From assembly GCA_015665315.1 (NCBI GenBank), contig JADFAK010000116.1, positions 1-56,362 on the forward strand: a DNA stretch of 56,362 nucleotides, in the 5' to 3' direction. The position numbers and the translations under genes are program-made. Shown here one piece after another: positions 1,395 to 14,294 of the stretch. Positions within the stretch are counted from its first letter, which is position 1, and each line of letters begins with the position of its first letter. Under the pieces are notes generated by a model. It had not been told where the DNA came from and did no database searches. It saw nothing but the letters and a program-made list of their open reading frames with translations. This DNA is from Flavobacteriales bacterium. GTDB lineage: Bacteria > Bacteroidota > Bacteroidia > Flavobacteriales_D > Sanyastnellaceae.

Positions 1395-2402
1395 ATGAAC
1401 GATATTTTTACTTGGGCGGGAATTGTATTCTGCGTCTCGCAATCGGCAATGTTCTCCGGCCTTAACCTTGCCTTTTTTAGTCTTACCCGTCTGCGCCTCG
1501 AAATCGAAGTCGAAGCCTCAGGCAACGAGGCGGCCAATAAAGTTCTTTCCATGCGAAATGACTCCAACTTTCTCCTGGCAACCATCCTTTGGGGAAATGT
1601 AGGGATCAACGTTCTACTCACACTTTTGTCCGACTCAGTTATGATGGGACTTTCGTCCTTTTTATTCTCGACAATCGTCATTACCATTTTTGGCGAGATA
1701 GTCCCACAGGCCTACTTTTCCCGAAATGCGCTCAAAATGGCATCGATATTGGCTCCTGTTTTACGCTTCTACCAATTTGCCCTCTACCCGATTGCCAAGC
1801 CTTGTGGTATTTTATTGGACAAGTGGTTGGGTAAGGAATCTTCGCAATACCTCTCCGAAGACATTATTTCCCTCTTCATCAAGAAACACGTCGAAGACAC
1901 CGAGAGCGAGATTGATCGCATTGAAGGAACGGGTGCCATCAATTTCCTGCACTTGGACGATCTGCCTGTTTCTGGTGAAGGAGAGCCTATCAATCCAAGA
2001 AGTATTATTGAGGTCGAAACCTCAGGAGACCGCATTGTATTCCCAGAGAAGTTGATGAAAATCGAAGATCCTTTCATCCAACAGATTAACGAGTGCGAAG
2101 AAAAGTGGGTGATTTTCGTCAATAAGGAAAACAATCCAGTAGCCGTATTAGATGCCGACGGCTTTATCCGTTCGATTATTTCACCTAAACTCACAAAAGA
2201 TATCCGCGTTTTCTGTCACCGGCCGCTCATGATCAAAGACCCTTCAACCGATTTAGCGACGGTCCTCAACATGCTTAGAGGAAGCCTTGTGCGCTCGGCC
2301 GACACACCAATTCAGCACGACCTAGTGCTTTTGTGGGAACCAGATTCCAAGAAAATTGTTACGGGTGCCGATATCTTTGGCAAACTATTGCAGGGGATTT
2401 AA
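1395..2402 (+). CDS. CNNM/CorC-type (DUF21) membrane protein
   Basis: The 335-residue protein starts with a DUF21/CNNM transmembrane domain (about residues 1-180): small-residue-rich helix 1 (FSGLNLAFFSLTR), a charged linker (RLRLEIEVEASGNEAA) and the family signature GEIVPQAYFSRNAL around residue 100. CNNM/CorC proteins are inner-membrane proteins tied to Mg2+ and Co2+ efflux. The C-terminal 150 residues sit where a CBS pair normally is, but only fragments are recognisable (VIFVNKENNPVAVLDADGFI). It follows a region with two motif copies and a TGTGACCAAA half-site and converges on the MscS-like gene. Membrane family is confident; substrate is inferred from the family. Confidence 0.85.
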   Translation: MNDIFTWAGIVFCVSQSAMFSGLNLAFFSLTRLRLEIEVEASGNEAANKVLSMRNDSNFLLATILWGNVGINVLLTLLSDSVMMGLSSFLFSTIVITIFGEIVPQAYFSRNALKMASILAPVLRFYQFALYPIAKPCGILLDKWLGKESSQYLSEDIISLFIKKHVEDTESEIDRIEGTGAINFLHLDDLPVSGEGEPINPRSIIEVETSGDRIVFPEKLMKIEDPFIQQINECEEKWVIFVNKENNPVAVLDADGFIRSIISPKLTKDIRVFCHRPLMIKDPSTDLATVLNMLRGSLVRSADTPIQHDLVLLWEPDSKKIVTGADIFGKLLQGI

Positions 2403-2455: not shown

Positions 2456-3211
2456 TTAGTTATTCGCTGGATTTACTCCATTTCCGTACGCCTGCTTCAA
2501 TGCATTCTCTACCTCAAACATTTGCTCTTGGTCCAGTCCGTGCGCAATGATTTTTAGCGAATAACTCGCATCGTCTTCTCCCAAATGCTCGAATGCAATC
2601 TTTTGATTCGGCAGCACGTAGGGCATTGACAAGAGGATGCTTCTTAGTCGTTTCTTCTCGCGCTCAACGTCGCAGGGTTTGTGCACGGTCAAGCGAAATC
2701 CATGGCTCAACACGCCCGAAGTTGGGCTTGTTCGAATGACCGATTCACCGTTGAAACTGGAATAGGGAATGTCCATGGAGCCACCGCCGTCCAACTCTAT
2801 CTCCAAACCGAGCGGATTAAATGCCTTGATCACGCCCCTCGATTCTTTGAACACTATACGCTGGCCCACTTTATACGTATCTCCCACTCTCAACAAAATG
2901 CCAAAGAAGAAATTCCGCAAGGGATGCCAAAAAATCAAGGTGACAAAAAAGAACAGAACCGCTCCAACAACTGGTCGATCATGCACCAAAATAAACCCCA
3001 GCAACAGCACAAGTCCGGGCCAATAAACACGCTGCAAGAAATCCAATCGCTTGTCCCATTGTTCGCGAGTCGCTCCTGTTCCCAGTGCTGGCATCAGTAA
3101 CTTCCTGAGCACCGAGTATATAAAGGCCAAAACCAGTCCGCCAATAAGTACCCAAAGCAATGTGTTATTGCTCCCCAATTCCGGACTTATTAATTCATTT
3201 ATCTCCTCCAT
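2456..3211 (-). CDS. Small MscS-like mechanosensitive channel protein
   Basis: The 251-residue protein has about three hydrophobic segments (roughly residues 18-40, 65-82 and 85-105), then an MscS beta-type domain (VGQRIVFKESRGVIKAFNPL, then IPYSSF) at about 113-165, and an alpha/beta C-terminal domain. In MscS proteins the last helix lines the pore and the beta domain forms the cytoplasmic cage; opening releases solutes on hypo-osmotic shock. The usual glycine/alanine-rich pore helix is poorly conserved (the segment before the beta domain is HPLRNFFFGILLRVG), so gating may differ. It lies 68 bases downstream of the cotransporter-ATPase fusion gene, same strand, a probable operon linking ion uptake with solute release. 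Confidence 0.8.
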   Translation of the reverse strand: MEEINELISPELGSNNTLLWVLIGGLVLAFIYSVLRKLLMPALGTGATREQWDKRLDFLQRVYWPGLVLLLGFILVHDRPVVGAVLFFFVTLIFWHPLRNFFFGILLRVGDTYKVGQRIVFKESRGVIKAFNPLGLEIELDGGGSMDIPYSSFNGESVIRTSPTSGVLSHGFRLTVHKPCDVEREKKRLRSILLSMPYVLPNQKIAFEHLGEDDASYSLKIIAHGLDQEQMFEVENALKQAYGNGVNPANN

Positions 3212-3279: not shown

Positions 3280-6200
3280 CTATATCGCCCCACATTGCTC
3301 CGCTCTTCGCGTGATCCAAACTTGAGCAAGTGGATTAATGCCGTAAGTAGTTCCCATGACATCTTCGAGCAATCCGTCGCTCATGAGCTGACGGATAACC
3401 CGTTCGGCTTTGGTGGCGTCGTCGTATTTGAACAAGCGTTGAATGCGATTGGCGTCCAAGTGCTTGTGCAGGATGAACTGAGAAAGTAGGATCAGCCATT
3501 CCTTCTCTTGAAGAACCGGAAAGCTATGATCTGTTGGTATTCGCATCTCCAATACGTCATCGTTCAAATCGTTGATGTGATTGATCCATAAGTGAAATGC
3601 AACACCTATATTTCCTTGCGAATTTTGAGCAAATCGATCCAATAACTTACGCTTCTCCCGAGCCGAAAGGTTCTCTCCATTGCTGTTTGGCAAACTGAGT
3701 TGCAGTCCGCCAGCAACATGCCTTTCCAATACCAAACTCTTCAAAGCACTGGCCTGAAGATTGGGCAAGAACATGGTGGAAGCTACCAAGTTATCGAGCA
3801 GACCTTGTGCCTTCATTATCTTGTAGGCAAAGCTATTGCAGGTCAGGATAATTCGATGACCAATTTGTTTGTCGTTGACCAACTTGACAATGGCTTTGAG
3901 AGCCTTGTTCTGCGCATCGGCTCGATCCCACCACAACTCGAGGTCGTCAAAAAGAAAGACCGTTCCTTCGGGTGCGTCTCGGATGACCGACTTTCTGTAG
4001 GGGCCCAAAGGGTTTTGTTTTTGCAGACTGCGCATCAAGTCGATTTCGGACGTACTGCCATTCACTGGAGCCTGAATCTTCACTACCTGCTTGTGACCTA
4101 TTTCCTTGGCAATCGACTCAGCGAAAAAGGTTTTTCCTGAAAGTGGGGCTCCCACAACGAGCAAACTCCTTTCTTTCTCATTCGGATCCTGCAGAACACT
4201 CATCGCATGGGCAATCTCCTTCTCGCGATGTCGGAGATGGGCAATATTCGGAGCTTGTTTGCCCACAAAAAGTTGCTTGTAGTAAAATGGAATTCTCTCC
4301 TCCACCTCAGATGAGATGCACAGTTCGTTGGCAAATTGCCTCAACTTAAAATGGGAGTCGGAAAGGGACTGGTTCTTCAGTGTAGACGCACTAGTCTTGT
4401 TCATTCCGTTGTTTTCCACCAATTCGCCGTACTTGACAAAGATGGACGCCACTCGTTCCACCCCGTTGTTGATCCAATTCACCAATCCTTTTTTCGACTT
4501 CGCTGCCGATGCAGGAATTACACGCACCGCATGGTCGAGCAAGGCCGAGGTATTCATCGAGCTGTTGGCCGTATGAACGATATCAATGAGTGCTTGACTC
4601 AGTCCTTCCTTATCGGCTTTGAGCTGACCTTGAATCTTCGCAAAGGTGGCCTTCAGGTTCTCCAACAAGCCTTTGAACTCCTCCGCATTTGGTGGGACCT
4701 TGGCGAGGGTGACTTTTTGCACCAGTTGGTTCATGCTGTATTGCAACTTGCTCAGCGCCTCCATATTGCATTGATAGGTCGCCACCAAGTGCTTTTGAAC
4801 AGGTGATTGGAATATTCCTTGTAGCAGGTGAGTATAGCTTGCCAGCGACTGAATATCAATTGATTCGACCGACTCACCTTGGTTATGGGCAAAATCGCTC
4901 AAGCTATCGGGATCCATCAACTGGAGTTGCTCGGGCAAGGCATCTCCGGCGGTGACTGCCCATGACATATAGCTCTGAATCTTGATGTCGTCGTAGCTCA
5001 AACTTTGGTTTACTTCCGGCATATCGTTGGCTGTAGACATACCATTTTTCTCCAAGGCCGCCATCCACTTTTGAGCCTGTTGCATCCTAGCCGCCGCTTC
5101 GTCGAACATCGATTGATTGATTTCTTCGGTCAGCGCCTCCCCTATGCGTTCGAGAACCAGTTGAATCTTGTTCATCTTTATATCGGTCGAAAGCTTGGCT
5201 GCCAGCAGGTTCTCATTTCGGTGCCAAAATTCTGGGTAGGAATCGTTCTCGAGAAGCAATTTCTTCCTTTCCTTGTTGGAATAAGGCTTATGCTTGGCGA
5301 CCACCTCCCCTGGCTTAGGCGCCAAGGCATTTGCCGAATGGCTTATAAATTCCCTGCCTAAATTCCTGACCTTCACCTTGAGCTCGCCACATTGTACTTT
5401 CACCAGTTGCAGCAATTCATCAAAAACGCCCGAAACCAACTGTGCCGGGTCAGAATCCCCTTTGCCGACCTTATCGAGCACCTTTTCAGACTTCGCTAGG
5501 CCATTTTTCAGTAACTCGGAAAGCGACACGCCTGTGCGACCAATTTGATGATCCAATTCAGTGATCGTATCGATAAACTCGTGGTTGAAAGACTCGACAA
5601 CAATTCTTCGAAATGATTTCTTTTTTCCATCAACTCGAATCCTCCTAGGTACCAATCCAGCTATTTCGAGCGGAAGAGGATCCATCTTCTCCTTGGCGTG
5701 CTCTAGTCGCTCTTCCAAGTAAGGCAAGTCCTCGTTTTTGAACAATTCGATGCGGTCCTGATAAGCATCCAACATAGCCACCTGCATGTCTTTTATCGAC
5801 AGCTCATCGCCGCTCGAAATGGCCGCCAATGCCGACTTCTTGCAATCTTGAACAAAACCCTCGTAAATATTCTGGTAAGATGAAAGCTCGTCGTTCACAT
5901 AGGCCAAAAACGCACTATCGATGGCTTCACTGAATAGGGCAAAGTTCGTCTGCGCAGCCTCATCACTAAGCACCGGAACAGGCAACAATTCGACAGGCAC
6001 CTTCTTCTCCGCCAACTCACTTTCATCGAAGATTTCTTCGCGACGATATTGGATATCTTCTCCTAGTGTAGAGCTTGTTTTGACCAACAAAGTCGTGGCA
6101 ATCGACTTGAACATCTCCGTGGTTTTCTCGACAAAATCGCGTTCCTGTCCGTCGGGAATATCCGGAATACCCGCAATAATCAAATCGGCGTCCTTGCTCT

Positions 6201-8199
6201 CATTCTTCATGAGGTCGTAGGAACTTTTTTGAATCAAGTGGTTGTCGATCACCAAGACGCTCGCCTCGATGCGATAGCGGTCCAACATCTTGTGAATTCG
6301 GCGTTCAAACCCTTCCTTGCTCGTTTCGTTGATCAGGATAATGCGAATGGTGGCCTTGCTCCACTGGTTGGATTGCGAAATAAATTTGACGAGGTTGAGG
6401 GTCAGCTCAGCATTGTTATGCAGGTTATGCCACCAGATATCGATGCGCTGGTATTTTCCAAATTGCTTGTTCCAGTCATAATCCAAGTACAGCACATTGT
6501 AATCCAAAGCCATGAGCTTCTGGGTCATTTGTGCAAACCAAATTGGGTCTTTGGTATTCTTGGCCCAGCCTAAGAGAACGGTATTGGGCTCGACACCGGA
6601 AAATCCGTAGGTGCTGGCAATGGTTTCGATGCCTTTGAAAACATTTTGCACCTCCATTTTACGACCAAAGATGCCGTGTTCGATGAGGACAGGATCCTTG
6701 ACCGACTGCTCATGTTTTGGAAAAAGCACCTCTGCATGGGGGTTCTCGATCAGGTCGAAATTCGAGATCATCCCCACTTTTCCCGCGATCGATTTCGACA
6801 TCTCGATCAAGTGTGGTCTGTTTTCAGTGCTTCCACTAAACAGAAGGATATTGGGCTTCCAGTTTCTAGAACTATCGGCCTTTTGGTCCATTTTCTTAAG
6901 CCCCTTCATGACGAGTGAAGACCACACACTTGTCCACACATCACCCGAACTCAGGGCGAGTTGCTTACGCTGCAAGTAGGCATAAATCCCACCTATCACG
7001 AGGAATGCAGCCACCATAGCCCCAGGATTTAGTTGAAACATAACGGCAAAAGTCGCTACGAAACCAAGTAGACCAATCCAGCGCTTTACTTTGAAACTTG
7101 GGGAGAAATCGGCGCTTGCCCAGCTTTCGAGGAAGAATGCCAAGTTGATGAAACCATAAGCCGCCAAGTAGAACATCGAACACACTTCGGCGATCATGTC
7201 AAGTTCACCGATGAGCACTCCACATTCGGCAATTACGAGGGTTATCAAGAGGGCGTTTCTCGGCTCATTGTCCTTCCCCACCCCATTTCCAAACGTCTTG
7301 GGCGTAATCCGATCGATGGACATGGCCTGCAAAATGCGCGGTCCGCCCAAAATTCCTCCCAGTGCCGACGAAAGCGTTGCTCCCCAGATACCAGCCACAA
7401 CGGCCGGAGCGAAGAGGGCGATCTTCATCAAAACATTGTAATCGGTTCTTAGCAGCTCTGGGTTAATGGCATAGGCCATAAAAACTGCCAGGCCGACATA
7501 CACGACAAAGCCAACAGCAATCGCCGCTATCGTCCCTCCTGGGATCGATTTCTTGGGGTCTTGCAGGTCTCCCGACATGGCAATACCAGCCGTAAATCCA
7601 GTCACAGCCGGAAAGAGAATGGCGAAGATCGTCATCATGGACAGTCCGTCGGTCGGACCGAAACTAGGCACTTCTTGCGGGGCATATTCCCAAGTACCGG
7701 CAAAGATCGAGACCAAGGACAGTCCGATAGCCGCCATGATGAAATACTGGGTTTTAATAGCCACAGCCGTGCTGATGATAGCAATGGTGGCAAGAATCCC
7801 CAAGGCGATGCTACCCGTAATTCGAAAACCGTTGATCGTTGTATCGAAGCCCAAGTACGCGTTGAAGCTTTCCGCAAAACCTACGAGGTAGAGGGCGATG
7901 CTCAAAGCAGTAGCGATCCACAAAGTTATCCCAATTGCGCCACCCATGGGCAAGCCTAAGGAACGAGACAATACGTAATAGACTCCTCCTGCGCCCACCT
8001 TCTTATCGGTGGCAATAGAGGAGATACTAAGTCCGGTGGTCACAGAGATCACGTGTGCAACGACGATGAGGATAATTGCACCAATGAGGCCCGCATTTCC
8101 AACCACCCAGCCGAGTCGCATGTACATAATGACACCGAGGATGGTGAGGATCGAGGGCGTGAAGACGCCTCCAAAAGTTCCGAATTTCTTTGCGGCCAT
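3280..8199 (-). CDS. SLC12-type cation-chloride cotransporter fused to an AAA+ ATPase
   Basis: This 1639-residue single frame has three parts. Residues 1 to about 420 are an APC-fold transporter with the SLC12 start (FGGVFTPSILTILGVIMYMR) and the diagnostic FPAVTGFTAGIAMSGDLQDP. About 430-760 resembles the SLC12 cytosolic domain (IDIWWHNLHNNAELTLNLVK). A long charged helical region follows (about 760-1330). The C-terminus is a P-loop ATPase: Walker A GAPLSGKT at 1350-1357, Walker B TVFLFDD near 1413-1419, then a helical lid and a winged-helix-like tail. SLC12 proteins move Cl- with Na+ and/or K+; the ion here is not predictable. The ATPase sits on the membrane protein and could sense state or assemble partners (inference). 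Normal bacterial SLC12 proteins end near 700-1000 residues. There is no internal stop, so it is a true fusion. One motif copy lies in the coding sequence at 5328-5342. Confidence 0.85.
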   Translation of the reverse strand: MAAKKFGTFGGVFTPSILTILGVIMYMRLGWVVGNAGLIGAIILIVVAHVISVTTGLSISSIATDKKVGAGGVYYVLSRSLGLPMGGAIGITLWIATALSIALYLVGFAESFNAYLGFDTTINGFRITGSIALGILATIAIISTAVAIKTQYFIMAAIGLSLVSIFAGTWEYAPQEVPSFGPTDGLSMMTIFAILFPAVTGFTAGIAMSGDLQDPKKSIPGGTIAAIAVGFVVYVGLAVFMAYAINPELLRTDYNVLMKIALFAPAVVAGIWGATLSSALGGILGGPRILQAMSIDRITPKTFGNGVGKDNEPRNALLITLVIAECGVLIGELDMIAEVCSMFYLAAYGFINLAFFLESWASADFSPSFKVKRWIGLLGFVATFAVMFQLNPGAMVAAFLVIGGIYAYLQRKQLALSSGDVWTSVWSSLVMKGLKKMDQKADSSRNWKPNILLFSGSTENRPHLIEMSKSIAGKVGMISNFDLIENPHAEVLFPKHEQSVKDPVLIEHGIFGRKMEVQNVFKGIETIASTYGFSGVEPNTVLLGWAKNTKDPIWFAQMTQKLMALDYNVLYLDYDWNKQFGKYQRIDIWWHNLHNNAELTLNLVKFISQSNQWSKATIRIILINETSKEGFERRIHKMLDRYRIEASVLVIDNHLIQKSSYDLMKNESKDADLIIAGIPDIPDGQERDFVEKTTEMFKSIATTLLVKTSSTLGEDIQYRREEIFDESELAEKKVPVELLPVPVLSDEAAQTNFALFSEAIDSAFLAYVNDELSSYQNIYEGFVQDCKKSALAAISSGDELSIKDMQVAMLDAYQDRIELFKNEDLPYLEERLEHAKEKMDPLPLEIAGLVPRRIRVDGKKKSFRRIVVESFNHEFIDTITELDHQIGRTGVSLSELLKNGLAKSEKVLDKVGKGDSDPAQLVSGVFDELLQLVKVQCGELKVKVRNLGREFISHSANALAPKPGEVVAKHKPYSNKERKKLLLENDSYPEFWHRNENLLAAKLSTDIKMNKIQLVLERIGEALTEEINQSMFDEAAARMQQAQKWMAALEKNGMSTANDMPEVNQSLSYDDIKIQSYMSWAVTAGDALPEQLQLMDPDSLSDFAHNQGESVESIDIQSLASYTHLLQGIFQSPVQKHLVATYQCNMEALSKLQYSMNQLVQKVTLAKVPPNAEEFKGLLENLKATFAKIQGQLKADKEGLSQALIDIVHTANSSMNTSALLDHAVRVIPASAAKSKKGLVNWINNGVERVASIFVKYGELVENNGMNKTSASTLKNQSLSDSHFKLRQFANELCISSEVEERIPFYYKQLFVGKQAPNIAHLRHREKEIAHAMSVLQDPNEKERSLLVVGAPLSGKTFFAESIAKEIGHKQVVKIQAPVNGSTSEIDLMRSLQKQNPLGPYRKSVIRDAPEGTVFLFDDLELWWDRADAQNKALKAIVKLVNDKQIGHRIILTCNSFAYKIMKAQGLLDNLVASTMFLPNLQASALKSLVLERHVAGGLQLSLPNSNGENLSAREKRKLLDRFAQNSQGNIGVAFHLWINHINDLNDDVLEMRIPTDHSFPVLQEKEWLILLSQFILHKHLDANRIQRLFKYDDATKAERVIRQLMSDGLLEDVMGTTYGINPLAQVWITRRAEQCGAI
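5328..5342 (-). repeat. GC-hairpin-AAATG motif, GCC/GGC class (loop ATTC)
   Basis: On the minus strand GCCATTCGGCAAATG, within the helical region of the SLC12-AAA fusion and in sense orientation. It encodes HSAN in the residues SHSANA. The preceding base is A, as in most copies. Confidence 0.75.
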
Positions 8200-12615: not shown

Positions 12616-13461
12616 ATGAAAGAACAAATAGCCGATTGGTCAGTAGGAACCGTTAACACACTACAGCATTTTTGGCACACCGTTGCCGCAAACTCGCCAA
12701 AGATCATTGGTGGAATTATTTTACTCATTATCGGATGGCTTCTCGCCAAATTCCTTTCCCGCCTGATCAAGAGGATTTTCTCCTCAAAGAAATTTGAAAA
12801 ACTCACCAAATCATTTGATGAATCCAGCGTAGTGCAGAGTGTCGACTTGGACTTCAGTTTGGCCAACGTCTTGAGCAAGTTTGTCTACTGGGTCGTTCTT
12901 ATTCTCTTCCTTGTCATTGTATCAGACAATATGGGATGGCCTGCAGTTTCTGAAGAAATTGGTTCGCTTTTTAGCTACCTACCCAAGCTGTTTGTGGCGA
13001 CAATCATCTTCGTCATTGGCATGTACATAGCCGATGTCTTGCGCCAGCTCATAAAAGCCTCTCTGAACTCGATTTCATTTGCTGGAAGCTCGCTGGTAAG
13101 CACGATTGTCTATTATATTATTATGATCATCATTTCGGTTACTGCTCTCAATCAAGCTGGAGTCGAAACCACCATGATCAGCTCGAATTTGAGCATCATT
13201 ATCGGCTCGGTGCTACTTGCCTTTGCCATCGGCTTTGGACTTGCCTCGAAGGACGTCATTCGCAAGATGCTGTTCAGCTATTACTCGAACCAAACGTATG
13301 AGGTCGGACAGAAAATAGTCTACAACAATGTTCAAGGAACCATCGTCAAACTGAATAATATGTCGGCCTTCGTGCAAACGGACACAGATCTCGAAATCAT
13401 CCCTATCGACATGCTAATCACTGAGCGAGCCAAGATCGTTTCAAGCCCAGGCGAAGCATGA
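12616..13461 (+). CDS. MscS-superfamily channel with conserved TM-helix repeats
   Basis: The 281-residue protein has at least five hydrophobic helices (about 30-52, 92-115, 122-145, 162-185 and 190-212). The paired segments GGIILLIIGWLLAKFLSRLI and KLFVATIIFVIGMYIADVLR match the repeat of CmpX-like MscS relatives. The last helix (GSVLLAFAIGFGLASKDVIR) is the small-residue-rich pore helix and leads into a beta domain (VGQKIVYNNVQGTIVKLNNM). It is likely an inner-membrane mechanosensitive or osmoadaptive channel. It overlaps the next MscS-type gene by four bases (ATGA), so the two are co-translated. The inverted repeat at 12561-12575 is a probable control site. Confidence 0.85.
   Translation: MKEQIADWSVGTVNTLQHFWHTVAANSPKIIGGIILLIIGWLLAKFLSRLIKRIFSSKKFEKLTKSFDESSVVQSVDLDFSLANVLSKFVYWVVLILFLVIVSDNMGWPAVSEEIGSLFSYLPKLFVATIIFVIGMYIADVLRQLIKASLNSISFAGSSLVSTIVYYIIMIIISVTALNQAGVETTMISSNLSIIIGSVLLAFAIGFGLASKDVIRKMLFSYYSNQTYEVGQKIVYNNVQGTIVKLNNMSAFVQTDTDLEIIPIDMLITERAKIVSSPGEA
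13076..13089 (-). repeat. GC-hairpin-AAATG motif, GCT/AGC class (loop TCC)
   Basis: On the minus strand GCTTCCAGCAAATG, preceded by A. The third pair is T.A. It lies in the MscS-type gene, antisense, at the residues SFAGS. A GCT/AGC stem can occur by chance, so this one is less certain than the G.C and C.G classes. Confidence 0.5.
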
Positions 13462-14294
13462 GAGAATTGTTTGACTATCACCTTATTTCGACAGAGAATT
13501 TCGAACTCACTGTCGGCCAACTTATTGCGGCCATTGCCAGTCTGGCAGTGGCCAAATTGGTGCTTATCATTGTCAAAAAGCTCATCCGTCGAAAGGCTAA
13601 GCAACGCGAACAAGCCAGTGGTCGCTACCATTCCCTGTATCTCATTGTTAGCTATTTCGTTTGGACTTTCGCACTCATAACTGCCATGGAATTGGTCGGC
13701 ATCAAGTTAAATTTCTTGCTGGCCGGAGGAGCGGCGCTTATGGTGGGTGTCGGTCTGGGATTGCAGAATGTTTTTAACGACTTCGTCTCTGGAGTTATCA
13801 TTCTTGTGGAGGGGACGATCGAAGTGCATGATATCATTCAAGTAGACGGACTCATAGGCAAAGTATCCAAGATCTCCTTGCGCTATTCGGAGGTCACCAC
13901 GCTTGATGACTACTCTATCATCGTGCCCAATCACTACTTCATATCCGAAAAAGTGGTTAACTGGACACACAATAAATTGGACGTGCGTTTCAACGTAGAA
14001 GTAGGAGTTGCTTACGGTTCCGACACAGCCAAGGTCGTTGAAATCTTAGAAAATATTCCAAACCAATTTCCAAAAATCTCAAAATCCAAAAAGCCCTTTG
14101 CTCGCTTCCAGGGTTTTGGCGAGTCTAGCCTTGATTTCCAAATATTCTTCTGGTCCTCAGACCCATACAGAATCGAAAATCTAAAGAGTCAAATGCGCTT
14201 GTTGATCGATCAAGAGTTTCGGAAAAACGGTATTACCATTCCATTTCCTCAACGAGATCTACACATTGTTTCGGATAAGACGAAGGGGAAGTAA
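13458..14294 (+). CDS. MscS-family mechanosensitive ion channel
   Basis: The 278-residue protein has three N-terminal helices (about 22-40, 58-78 and 85-115). The last is the classical pore helix (FLLAGGAALMVGVGLGLQNV then FNDFVSGVIILVEG). The MscS beta domain follows (IIQVDGLIGKVSKISLRYSE then TTLDDYSIIVPNHYFISEKV) with the alpha/beta C-terminus. All family features are present, so it is likely a functional small-conductance channel that releases solutes at low external osmolarity. It starts inside the stop of the upstream channel gene (4-base overlap), so two different MscS-type subunits are made together, perhaps as a mixed channel (inference). Confidence 0.93.
   Translation: MRELFDYHLISTENFELTVGQLIAAIASLAVAKLVLIIVKKLIRRKAKQREQASGRYHSLYLIVSYFVWTFALITAMELVGIKLNFLLAGGAALMVGVGLGLQNVFNDFVSGVIILVEGTIEVHDIIQVDGLIGKVSKISLRYSEVTTLDDYSIIVPNHYFISEKVVNWTHNKLDVRFNVEVGVAYGSDTAKVVEILENIPNQFPKISKSKKPFARFQGFGESSLDFQIFFWSSDPYRIENLKSQMRLLIDQEFRKNGITIPFPQRDLHIVSDKTKGK

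Follow-up and report, generated by a model that had tools for sequence, protein, structure and literature searches.

We analyzed a window of 56,362 nucleotides from a Flavobacteriales bacterium of the Sanyastnellaceae (GenBank assembly GCA_015665315.1, contig JADFAK010000116.1, positions 1 to 56,362) and found that a single open frame of 1639 codons on its minus strand (8199..3280) joins an SLC12-type cation-chloride cotransporter (CCC) to a long helical region and an AAA+ domain. A gene of the MscS family follows on the same strand, and the pairing of the two genes recurs in other genomes. The best explanation, to which we give a probability of about 0.45, is that the two genes form an osmotic or cell-volume controller of ion transport. 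The features on which this reading draws are as follows.

3280..8199, minus strand: SLC12-AAA+ fusion gene, 1639 amino acids (aa); open frame with full-length homologues in other genomes
6940..8199, minus strand: SLC12 transmembrane domain, aa 1-420; family and PDB matches, with the presumed K+-site Tyr, Pro and Thr and the Na+-site ATLSS (274-278) kept
6130..6939, minus strand: SLC12 cytosolic alpha/beta domain, aa 421-690; family and PDB matches
6004..6090, minus strand: low-confidence linker from transporter to helical region, aa 704-732; predicted local distance difference test (pLDDT) <50 at model residues 16-44
4300..5979, minus strand: long helical region, aa 741-1300, including a 78-residue helix; AlphaFold model
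3535..4299, minus strand: predicted AAA+ core, aa 1301-1555, ORC/Cdc6/RuvB/RFC/NSF-like fold; AlphaFold model and structure searches
4129..4152, minus strand: Walker A GAPLSGKT, aa 1350-1357; motif, Lys in 41/43 fused members
3928..3960, minus strand: Walker B region VFLFDDLELWW, aa 1414-1424; motif
3295..3504, minus strand: winged-helix-like C-terminal tail, aa 1566-1635; order helix-helix-helix-strand-strand in the model
2456..3211, minus strand: MscS-family partner gene, 251 aa, 68 bp downstream of the fusion; profile search and predicted fold, kept beside the AAA+ part
2882..3169, minus strand: three-helix membrane part of the MscS-like protein, aa 15-110, with a pore helix poor in Gly and Ala (2/28 residues); predicted fold
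2483..2710, minus strand: MscS-type cytosolic alpha/beta domain, aa 168-243, the sole part retained in three relatives; predicted fold

An earlier note on this DNA had described an uninterrupted 1639-codon frame at 3280..8199 without giving its strand; the frame was borne out, and its layout of transporter with cytosolic domain, helical region, P-loop domain and winged-helix-like tail held segment by segment in family searches and in an AlphaFold model. Homologues align with the window protein from end to end, with best-segment identities of 51% over residues 2-1639 (locus L026) and 60% over residues 1-1639 (L034). The membrane domain is 89% identical to that of L034 and the transporter's cytosolic domain 79%; identity falls to 50% in the AAA+ part and to 36% in the helical region, the fastest-evolving part. 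These values suggest that the membrane domain is under strong constraint and that the helical and AAA+ parts diverge fast, a pattern often seen in regulators. Every segment of the frame showed an excess at the third codon position (ratio 1.42 to 6.76), indicating that the whole frame is coding and translated and that the fusion is no assembly accident.

Residues 3-667 match the K-Cl cotransporter model TIGR00930 (E 1.3e-109 at 368 bits, where the curated cut-off is 953), residues 12-410 match AA_permease (E 2.1e-49) and residues 583-658 match the SLC12 family; the top PDB matches of the transporter are SLC12 members (SLC12A2, E 1.1e-75). Judged from these matches, SLC12 homology is spread over both the membrane and the cytosolic domain. 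The window protein contains ALYLVGF and FPAVTG, and the Tyr of transmembrane helix 3 (TM3) and the Pro and Thr of TM6, which we take to be residues of the K+ site, are kept in the fused rows spanning those sites. In TM8, the motif is ATLSS in 36 of the 43 fused frames spanning the site and ATISS in the other 7. The TM1 motif of the window protein and of the fused family is LTIL, neither LNIW nor LNIL; according to a 2024 paper, ATLSS makes up the Na+ site together with LNIW, the motif of NKCC, and bacterial cotransporters carry LNIL with ATLSS (PMC11641049). Because ATLSS or ATISS is kept but TM1 reads LTIL, Na+-coupled K+/Cl- symport by the fused family is likely but not certain. The fusion shares with the SLC12 CCCs (NKCC, NCC, KCC and bacterial and archaeal CCCs such as that of M. 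acetivorans) the membrane and cytosolic alpha/beta domains, the Tyr/Pro/Thr of the K+ site and AT[LI]SS, with the motifs read as in PMC11641049; it differs from them by about 950 extra residues, which form the helical arm and the AAA+ part.

An AlphaFold model of residues 689-1639, built on an alignment of 55 sequences with the window sequence first, reached a mean pLDDT of 82.7 and a predicted template modeling score (pTM) of 0.55. After a low-confidence stretch at 704-732, it shows stacked very long helices up to about residue 1300, followed by an AAA+-like domain and a winged-helix-like tail, which the earlier note had also proposed. Residues 1301-1635 of the model match AAA+ structures, with NSF-D2 at Z 14.9 (root mean square deviation (rmsd) 3.8 over 219 residues) and RFC, ORC/Cdc6 and the E. 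coli clamp loader close. Foldseek, which the earlier note had suggested running by segment, recovered the AAA+ fold in the C-terminal model, matching RuvB and Cdc6 with probability 1.00 (RuvB, E 4.4e-6). On this model, the AAA+ fold of the C-terminal part is genuine. Pfam and NCBIfam alone left this part below threshold, the Pfam AAA models falling under their cut-offs in the window protein (PF00004, 20.9 against 21.2 bits), and a C-terminal profile run against PDB sequences found only weak AAA and coiled-coil matches; its apolipoprotein matches were ascribed to helix composition. For the helical region, no match to a known fold appeared among the matches listed in the fold searches, whose rows are AAA+ structures. 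The core fold and winged-helix-like tail are common to ORC/Cdc6, RuvB, RFC and NSF-D2, but the fusion differs from the ORC/Cdc6-type proteins in being tethered to the membrane through a transporter and in a Walker B motif that often reads [HN]D-x-E.

The P-loop GAPLSGKT (1350-1357) and the Walker B sequence FLFDD named in the earlier note are present in the window protein, the latter within VFLFDDLELWW (1414-1424), and the P-loop is retained in nearly all fused relatives (Walker A Lys in 41/43). In the fused SLC12 group, 42 of 43 members keep the second Walker B acid, and 28 have His or Asn at the first position of that motif. An Arg following the sensor strand is present in 42/43, a possible sensor-1 Asn in 34/43, and the two residues of a near-invariant Arg-His pair in 42/43 each; we presume the sensor-1 and arginine-finger roles, and the position of the pair might coincide with the Box VII arginine. 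Of 68 stand-alone relatives, 42 have the P-loop Lys and 15 have Arg instead; at the likely catalytic position, 28 have Asn and 15 have Gly. The fused group thus looks able to bind nucleotide, from its retained residues, and hydrolysis is uncertain. Since the Walker residues are degenerate in many relatives, a nucleotide-binding switch seems at least as likely as an active motor.

The MscS-like gene that the earlier note placed after the fusion was found at 3211..2456 on the same strand. Its product is predicted to have a complete MscS fold of three transmembrane helices, a beta domain and an alpha/beta domain (pLDDT 88.4, pTM 0.60), and the model matches MscS 7onl with Z 12.3 over 235 residues at an rmsd of 13.1, which we put down to domain shifts between the predicted and the known structure. 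A profile of 49 MscS-type partners finds MscM (E 1.5e-22); the Pfam score of the window partner is below the cut-off (19.1 against 20.2 bits). Among the 40 fused loci with at least 800 bases downstream, 38 have an MscS-type gene on the same strand within 400 bp, and in 27 of these 38 its reading frame overlaps the end of the fusion. A relaxed threshold added the partner of L041 (E 1.9e-6), so that 39/40 SLC12 fusions are paired.

In three isolates the pore is gone. Of the 246 profile positions, the partners at L035, L037 and L041 cover only 160-244, which correspond to the cytosolic alpha/beta domain; in these isolates, Fulvivirga sp. M361, F. marina and Imperialibacter, the partner genes have just 111, 116 and 123 codons. 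No hydrophobic segment was found in the three short partners (highest 19-residue mean 0.84). Because these isolates form one group in the AAA+ tree (support 99), the reduction of the partner probably occurred in one event. In the other SLC12 systems, TM3 of the partner is rich in aromatics and has a mean Gly plus Ala fraction of 0.15 (n=39); where the AAA+ protein stands alone, the fraction in its partner is 0.23 (n=67). The difference has a Mann-Whitney p of 1e-9, which overstates independence as the rows are related. The window partner, with 2 Gly or Ala in 28 TM3 residues, lacks a Gly/Ala-rich pore helix and is therefore named an MscS-related protein rather than a mechanosensitive channel. 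We read these sequence data as a pore that is losing importance in the SLC12 group while the cytosolic domain is retained. The window partner matches the MscS family (MscS, MscM, MscK and YnaI) in fold and length; the SLC12-group partners differ from that family in their Gly/Ala-poor TM3, in the cytosolic domain standing alone in three isolates and in a near-constant AAA+ neighbor.

Two further loci lie near the pair. A tandem of MscS-family genes, a PF05552 protein followed by a canonical MscS with a Gly/Ala-rich TM3, occupies 12616-14294 on the plus strand, about 4.4 kb upstream of the fusion; its second gene served as the control in the TM3 comparison. A CNNM-type membrane gene at 1395-2402 (plus strand; PF01595, E 7.7e-35) converges on the MscS-like gene, and phmmer found no relatives of it among the other loci compared.

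The earlier note had proposed setting the distribution of the fusion against that of its stand-alone parts. This comparison gave a conserved fusion within one SLC12 clade and an AAA+ part that also occurs alone. A scan of genome records yielded 54 loci, and further searches added more; once duplicate copies were set aside, the SLC12 membrane domain and the AAA+ domain were present together in 43 frames, 41 of them complete. The incomplete two are L055 (contig end) and L062 (broken frame, first part lost); L029, cut within the AAA+ part, was left out of the count. Fused frames occur in Bacteroidota, Ignavibacteriota, Fidelibacterota, Latescibacterota, Acidobacteriota, Myxococcota and metagenome-assembled genomes labelled Pseudomonadota; where a phylum is represented by one record, that record is a metagenome bin, which calls for caution. 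Six isolates carry the fusion: Lewinella cohaerens DSM 23179, Flexithrix dorotheae DSM 6795, Thermonema rossianum DSM 10300, Fulvivirga marina 29W222, Fulvivirga sp. M361 and Imperialibacter sp. EC-SDR9. In G001, a genome of the same genus, the only SLC12 protein is distant and unfused.

In a tree of the SLC12 membrane domain, the fused proteins form one clade (support 100), with 24 of 25 unfused rows outside it. On this tree, the remaining row, a Lutimonas transporter (L068), is a loss of the AAA+ part within the fused clade, and the history is one fusion event followed by one or more losses. The trees of this analysis were built quickly, with SH-aLRT (approximate likelihood ratio test) support only; eight incomplete rows were left unscored, six of which fall within the fused clade, and the program warned that some long branches meet, including that of the fused clade and two cyanobacterial rows.

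By homology, the AAA+ part is also a member of a wider AAA+/MscS module, which occurs both on its own and in fusion with another transporter family. An AAA+ profile (A3) searched in 395 genomes of the phylum matched in 119 at E <=1e-6, many of the matches being partial; rows weaker than about E 1e-20 were dropped as partial, as were two partial extra matches in G276. Many of the dropped rows lie in 800-900-residue frames, which we take to be Clp-type ATPases. The full-length matches (E <=5.3e-46) make up 77 loci in 76 genomes, the window included, with some flanks ending at contig ends. An MscS-family open reading frame (ORF) lies on the same strand, overlapping or within 400 bp, at 73 of the 77 loci. 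The other four are L211 and L212, on contigs of 3783 and 3569 bases, and L137 and L174, which have in the MscS place an ORF of 187 and 185 aa, respectively, and then an antiporter gene. The window genome has 11 MscS beta-domain matches, so that random adjacency would be rare, by our estimate <1% on the assumption of roughly 4000 genes. ORF starts at L158, L159 and similar high-GC loci are called too far upstream, which makes their lengths unreliable.

Six of the 77 loci are fusions of the AAA+ part to a Na_H_Exchanger-type antiporter (L118, L119, L120, L121, L173 and L214; E 7.2e-19 for L118), four are SLC12 fusions, and 67 have no recognised fused transporter. All six antiporter fusions have TrkH and TrkA genes alongside (Pfam names taken from L118), in a cluster of a second membrane gene (414-422 aa), the fusion of about 1500 aa, the MscS-like gene, TrkH and TrkA; for the second membrane gene, no convincing Pfam match was found at L118. 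At L127, L128, L137 and L174, which are among the 67, an antiporter gene is linked to the AAA+ part without being fused to it. Ion transport is thus a theme shared by the SLC12 fusion and the antiporter fusion and linkage. An AAA+ tree was built from 101 of the 120 rows, with a contig-end row and alternate rows of a stand-alone block omitted. In it the antiporter fusions group together (support 98), and the half of the tree in which they fall has no SLC12 fusions; the other half holds the 43 SLC12 fusions and the stand-alone L080, L081, L127, L128, L137 and L174 at unresolved forks. This separation indicates at least two fusions to ion transporters.

Some module loci have features of their own. 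At L160 (5062-13499, minus strand), the cluster consists of a 407-aa gene, TrkA with two RCK units, TrkH and an AAA+ protein whose N-terminus resembles membrane helices; Pfam gave it no transporter or antiporter match, and it was counted as stand-alone. L208 has a second MscS-type fragment of 98 aa (6257-6553, plus strand) downstream of a stand-alone AAA+/MscS pair. The frame at the contig end of L176 (ORF 3345-5093) begins with a peptide that resembles a translated sequencing adapter, and we presume that this contig end is contaminated.

In the two-gene controller that we favor, the first gene would yield, in one chain, an SLC12 Na+/K+/Cl- symporter joined by a long helical arm to a nucleotide switch of the AAA+ type in the cytosol, and the second an MscS-family protein whose conserved input would be its cytosolic alpha/beta domain. 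This MscS-derived domain would act as the sensor of the state of the cytosol, be it membrane tension or the crowding that the MscS cage is reported to sense. By docking on the AAA+ part it would alter the nucleotide state or assembly of that part, and the change in the AAA+ switch would pass through the helical arm to set the activity of the SLC12 output. We infer the physical contact, the direction of control, the ion stoichiometry and the stimulus; what the sequences show is the anatomy of the domains, the fusion, the pairing, the kept nucleotide and ion sites and the reduction of the partner to its cytosolic domain in three isolates. Koprowski et al. (PMC4440785) report non-channel interactions of the alpha/beta domain of E. 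coli MscS, among them binding of FtsZ, and the title of Rowe et al. 2014, which they cite, calls the MscS cage a crowding sensor. Animal WNK kinases are reported to be crowding sensors that act on SLC12 transporters in volume control (PMC11472293). The proposed system would do in bacteria what the WNK-SPAK-SLC12 volume circuit does in animals, with unrelated parts: WNK-SPAK/OSR1 is likewise an ATP-using regulator assigned to SLC12 with a link to volume and crowding, but it is a kinase cascade on separate chains, with no homology to the fusion and no MscS. Tentatively, the controller may be one case of a general bacterial AAA+/MscS module that senses osmotic state or crowding through a channel-derived cytosolic domain and drives whichever transporter is wired to it, SLC12 by fusion in one lineage and a Na+/H+-type antiporter with Trk in another, with the pore discarded and the sensor kept in some lineages.

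Several observations weigh against the controller reading. One of the 40 fused loci, L063, has no MscS-type gene. The unfused L068 nests in the fused clade beside the window's branch, and its 12-kb locus gave no AAA+ or MscS match, which indicates that the transporter can work without the control. The fusion is patchy, being present in 7 of 60 relatives, and makes up 4 of the 77 AAA+ loci; the 67 loci without a recognised fused transporter mean that the module must act without one. AAA+ forms of about 430 aa that lack most of the helical arm are still paired with MscS genes (L166, 4930-6216; L167, 5585-6886). No single chain joining AAA+ and MscS was seen among the AAA+ ORFs of the 77 loci. 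Partners of the six antiporter fusions have a TM3 Gly plus Ala mean of 0.15 too, so that this trait is no SLC12 peculiarity, although the aromatic richness is absent from them. Finally, TrkH was found in all 10 fused genomes tested, which rules out the fusion as sole K+ importer. KdpA was absent from all 10, a result that is uninformative because nearly all relatives lack it (2/60 with a match, 1 above cut-off); Kup was present in 1/10, an uncontrolled count.

A pump-and-leak arrangement, in which the MscS-like protein works as a channel under AAA+ gating, the transporter does no more than load ions and the ATP state times the leak, would account for the complete MscS fold predicted for the window partner, for the channel-like TM3 of the stand-alone AAA+ partners and for pairs that exist without a fused transporter. 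We consider it rather unlikely in view of the Gly/Ala-poor, aromatic-rich TM3 of the SLC12 group and of the three isolates that have given up the pore and kept the cytosolic domain. The AAA+ fold would also suit an assembly or quality-control remodeller of the adjoining membrane proteins, and ClpX, an AAA+ unfoldase, appears in a pull-down with the MscS alpha/beta domain, possibly indirectly according to its authors (PMC4440785). This is quite unlikely: stand-alone relatives often have degenerate Walker residues, it would be odd for a chaperone to be bound covalently, permanently and 1:1 to a single transporter, and the remodelling role entertained in the earlier note found no direct support.

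It is very improbable that the genes form an anti-phage or conflict system with a STAND-like AAA+ sensor and an MscS-type pore as killer effector. Such a system would fit the fast divergence of the helical part, the weak nSTAND scores below the Pfam cut-off (nSTAND3, E 0.0096 for the window protein; nSTAND1, E 6.3e-5 for L160) and a single weak PADLOC match (mad8, E 1.9e-4, to the antiporter fusion L118), but PADLOC gave no matches on the two window proteins and two L122 proteins, the stand-alone pairs have fixed chromosomal neighbors (of 41 loci examined, mainly from one family, 37 have two or more of four marker genes) and the pore is lost in three isolates. Chance fusion or assembly error might be suspected from the broken or short frames at L045 (836 + 843 aa) and L062 and from L052, whose frame ends at 548 aa, 49 bases short of the contig end; with 43 fused frames, six of them from named isolates, a single SLC12 clade and a coding signal that runs across the joint, we reject it.

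In line with the earlier note, which knew of no described system of this kind, we found no description of an SLC12-AAA+ fusion or an AAA+/MscS module, and met no regulator of bacterial SLC12 relatives, in the open-access literature (top-ranked results, preprints not covered). As far as this search goes, the novelty lies in the AAA+/MscS control module and its transporter fusions; the constituent domains belong to known families. In Trk/Ktr K+ uptake, ion transport is under a cytosolic nucleotide-binding regulator, TrkA or KtrA; TrkH and TrkA genes share a cluster with the antiporter variant of the module, but their regulator is an RCK/Rossmann domain, whereas that of the module is AAA+.

In animals, SLC12 transporters control cell volume and chloride, and drugs are aimed at them; a member with a covalently attached regulator could be purified as a single chain and studied together with its partner. 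The short AAA+ members L166 and L167 offer a minimal form for biochemistry, and the antiporter-AAA+ fusion within a K+ gene cluster is a separate finding. With full-length AAA+ members in 76 of the 395 genomes of the phylum sample, the AAA+/MscS pair is widespread, and the three pore-less MscS relatives allow a direct test of whether MscS has a sensor function apart from its channel. Should the reading as a general AAA+/MscS module be true, the fusion would be the first SLC12 transporter known to be governed by an ATPase, and WNK volume control would have a prokaryotic counterpart.

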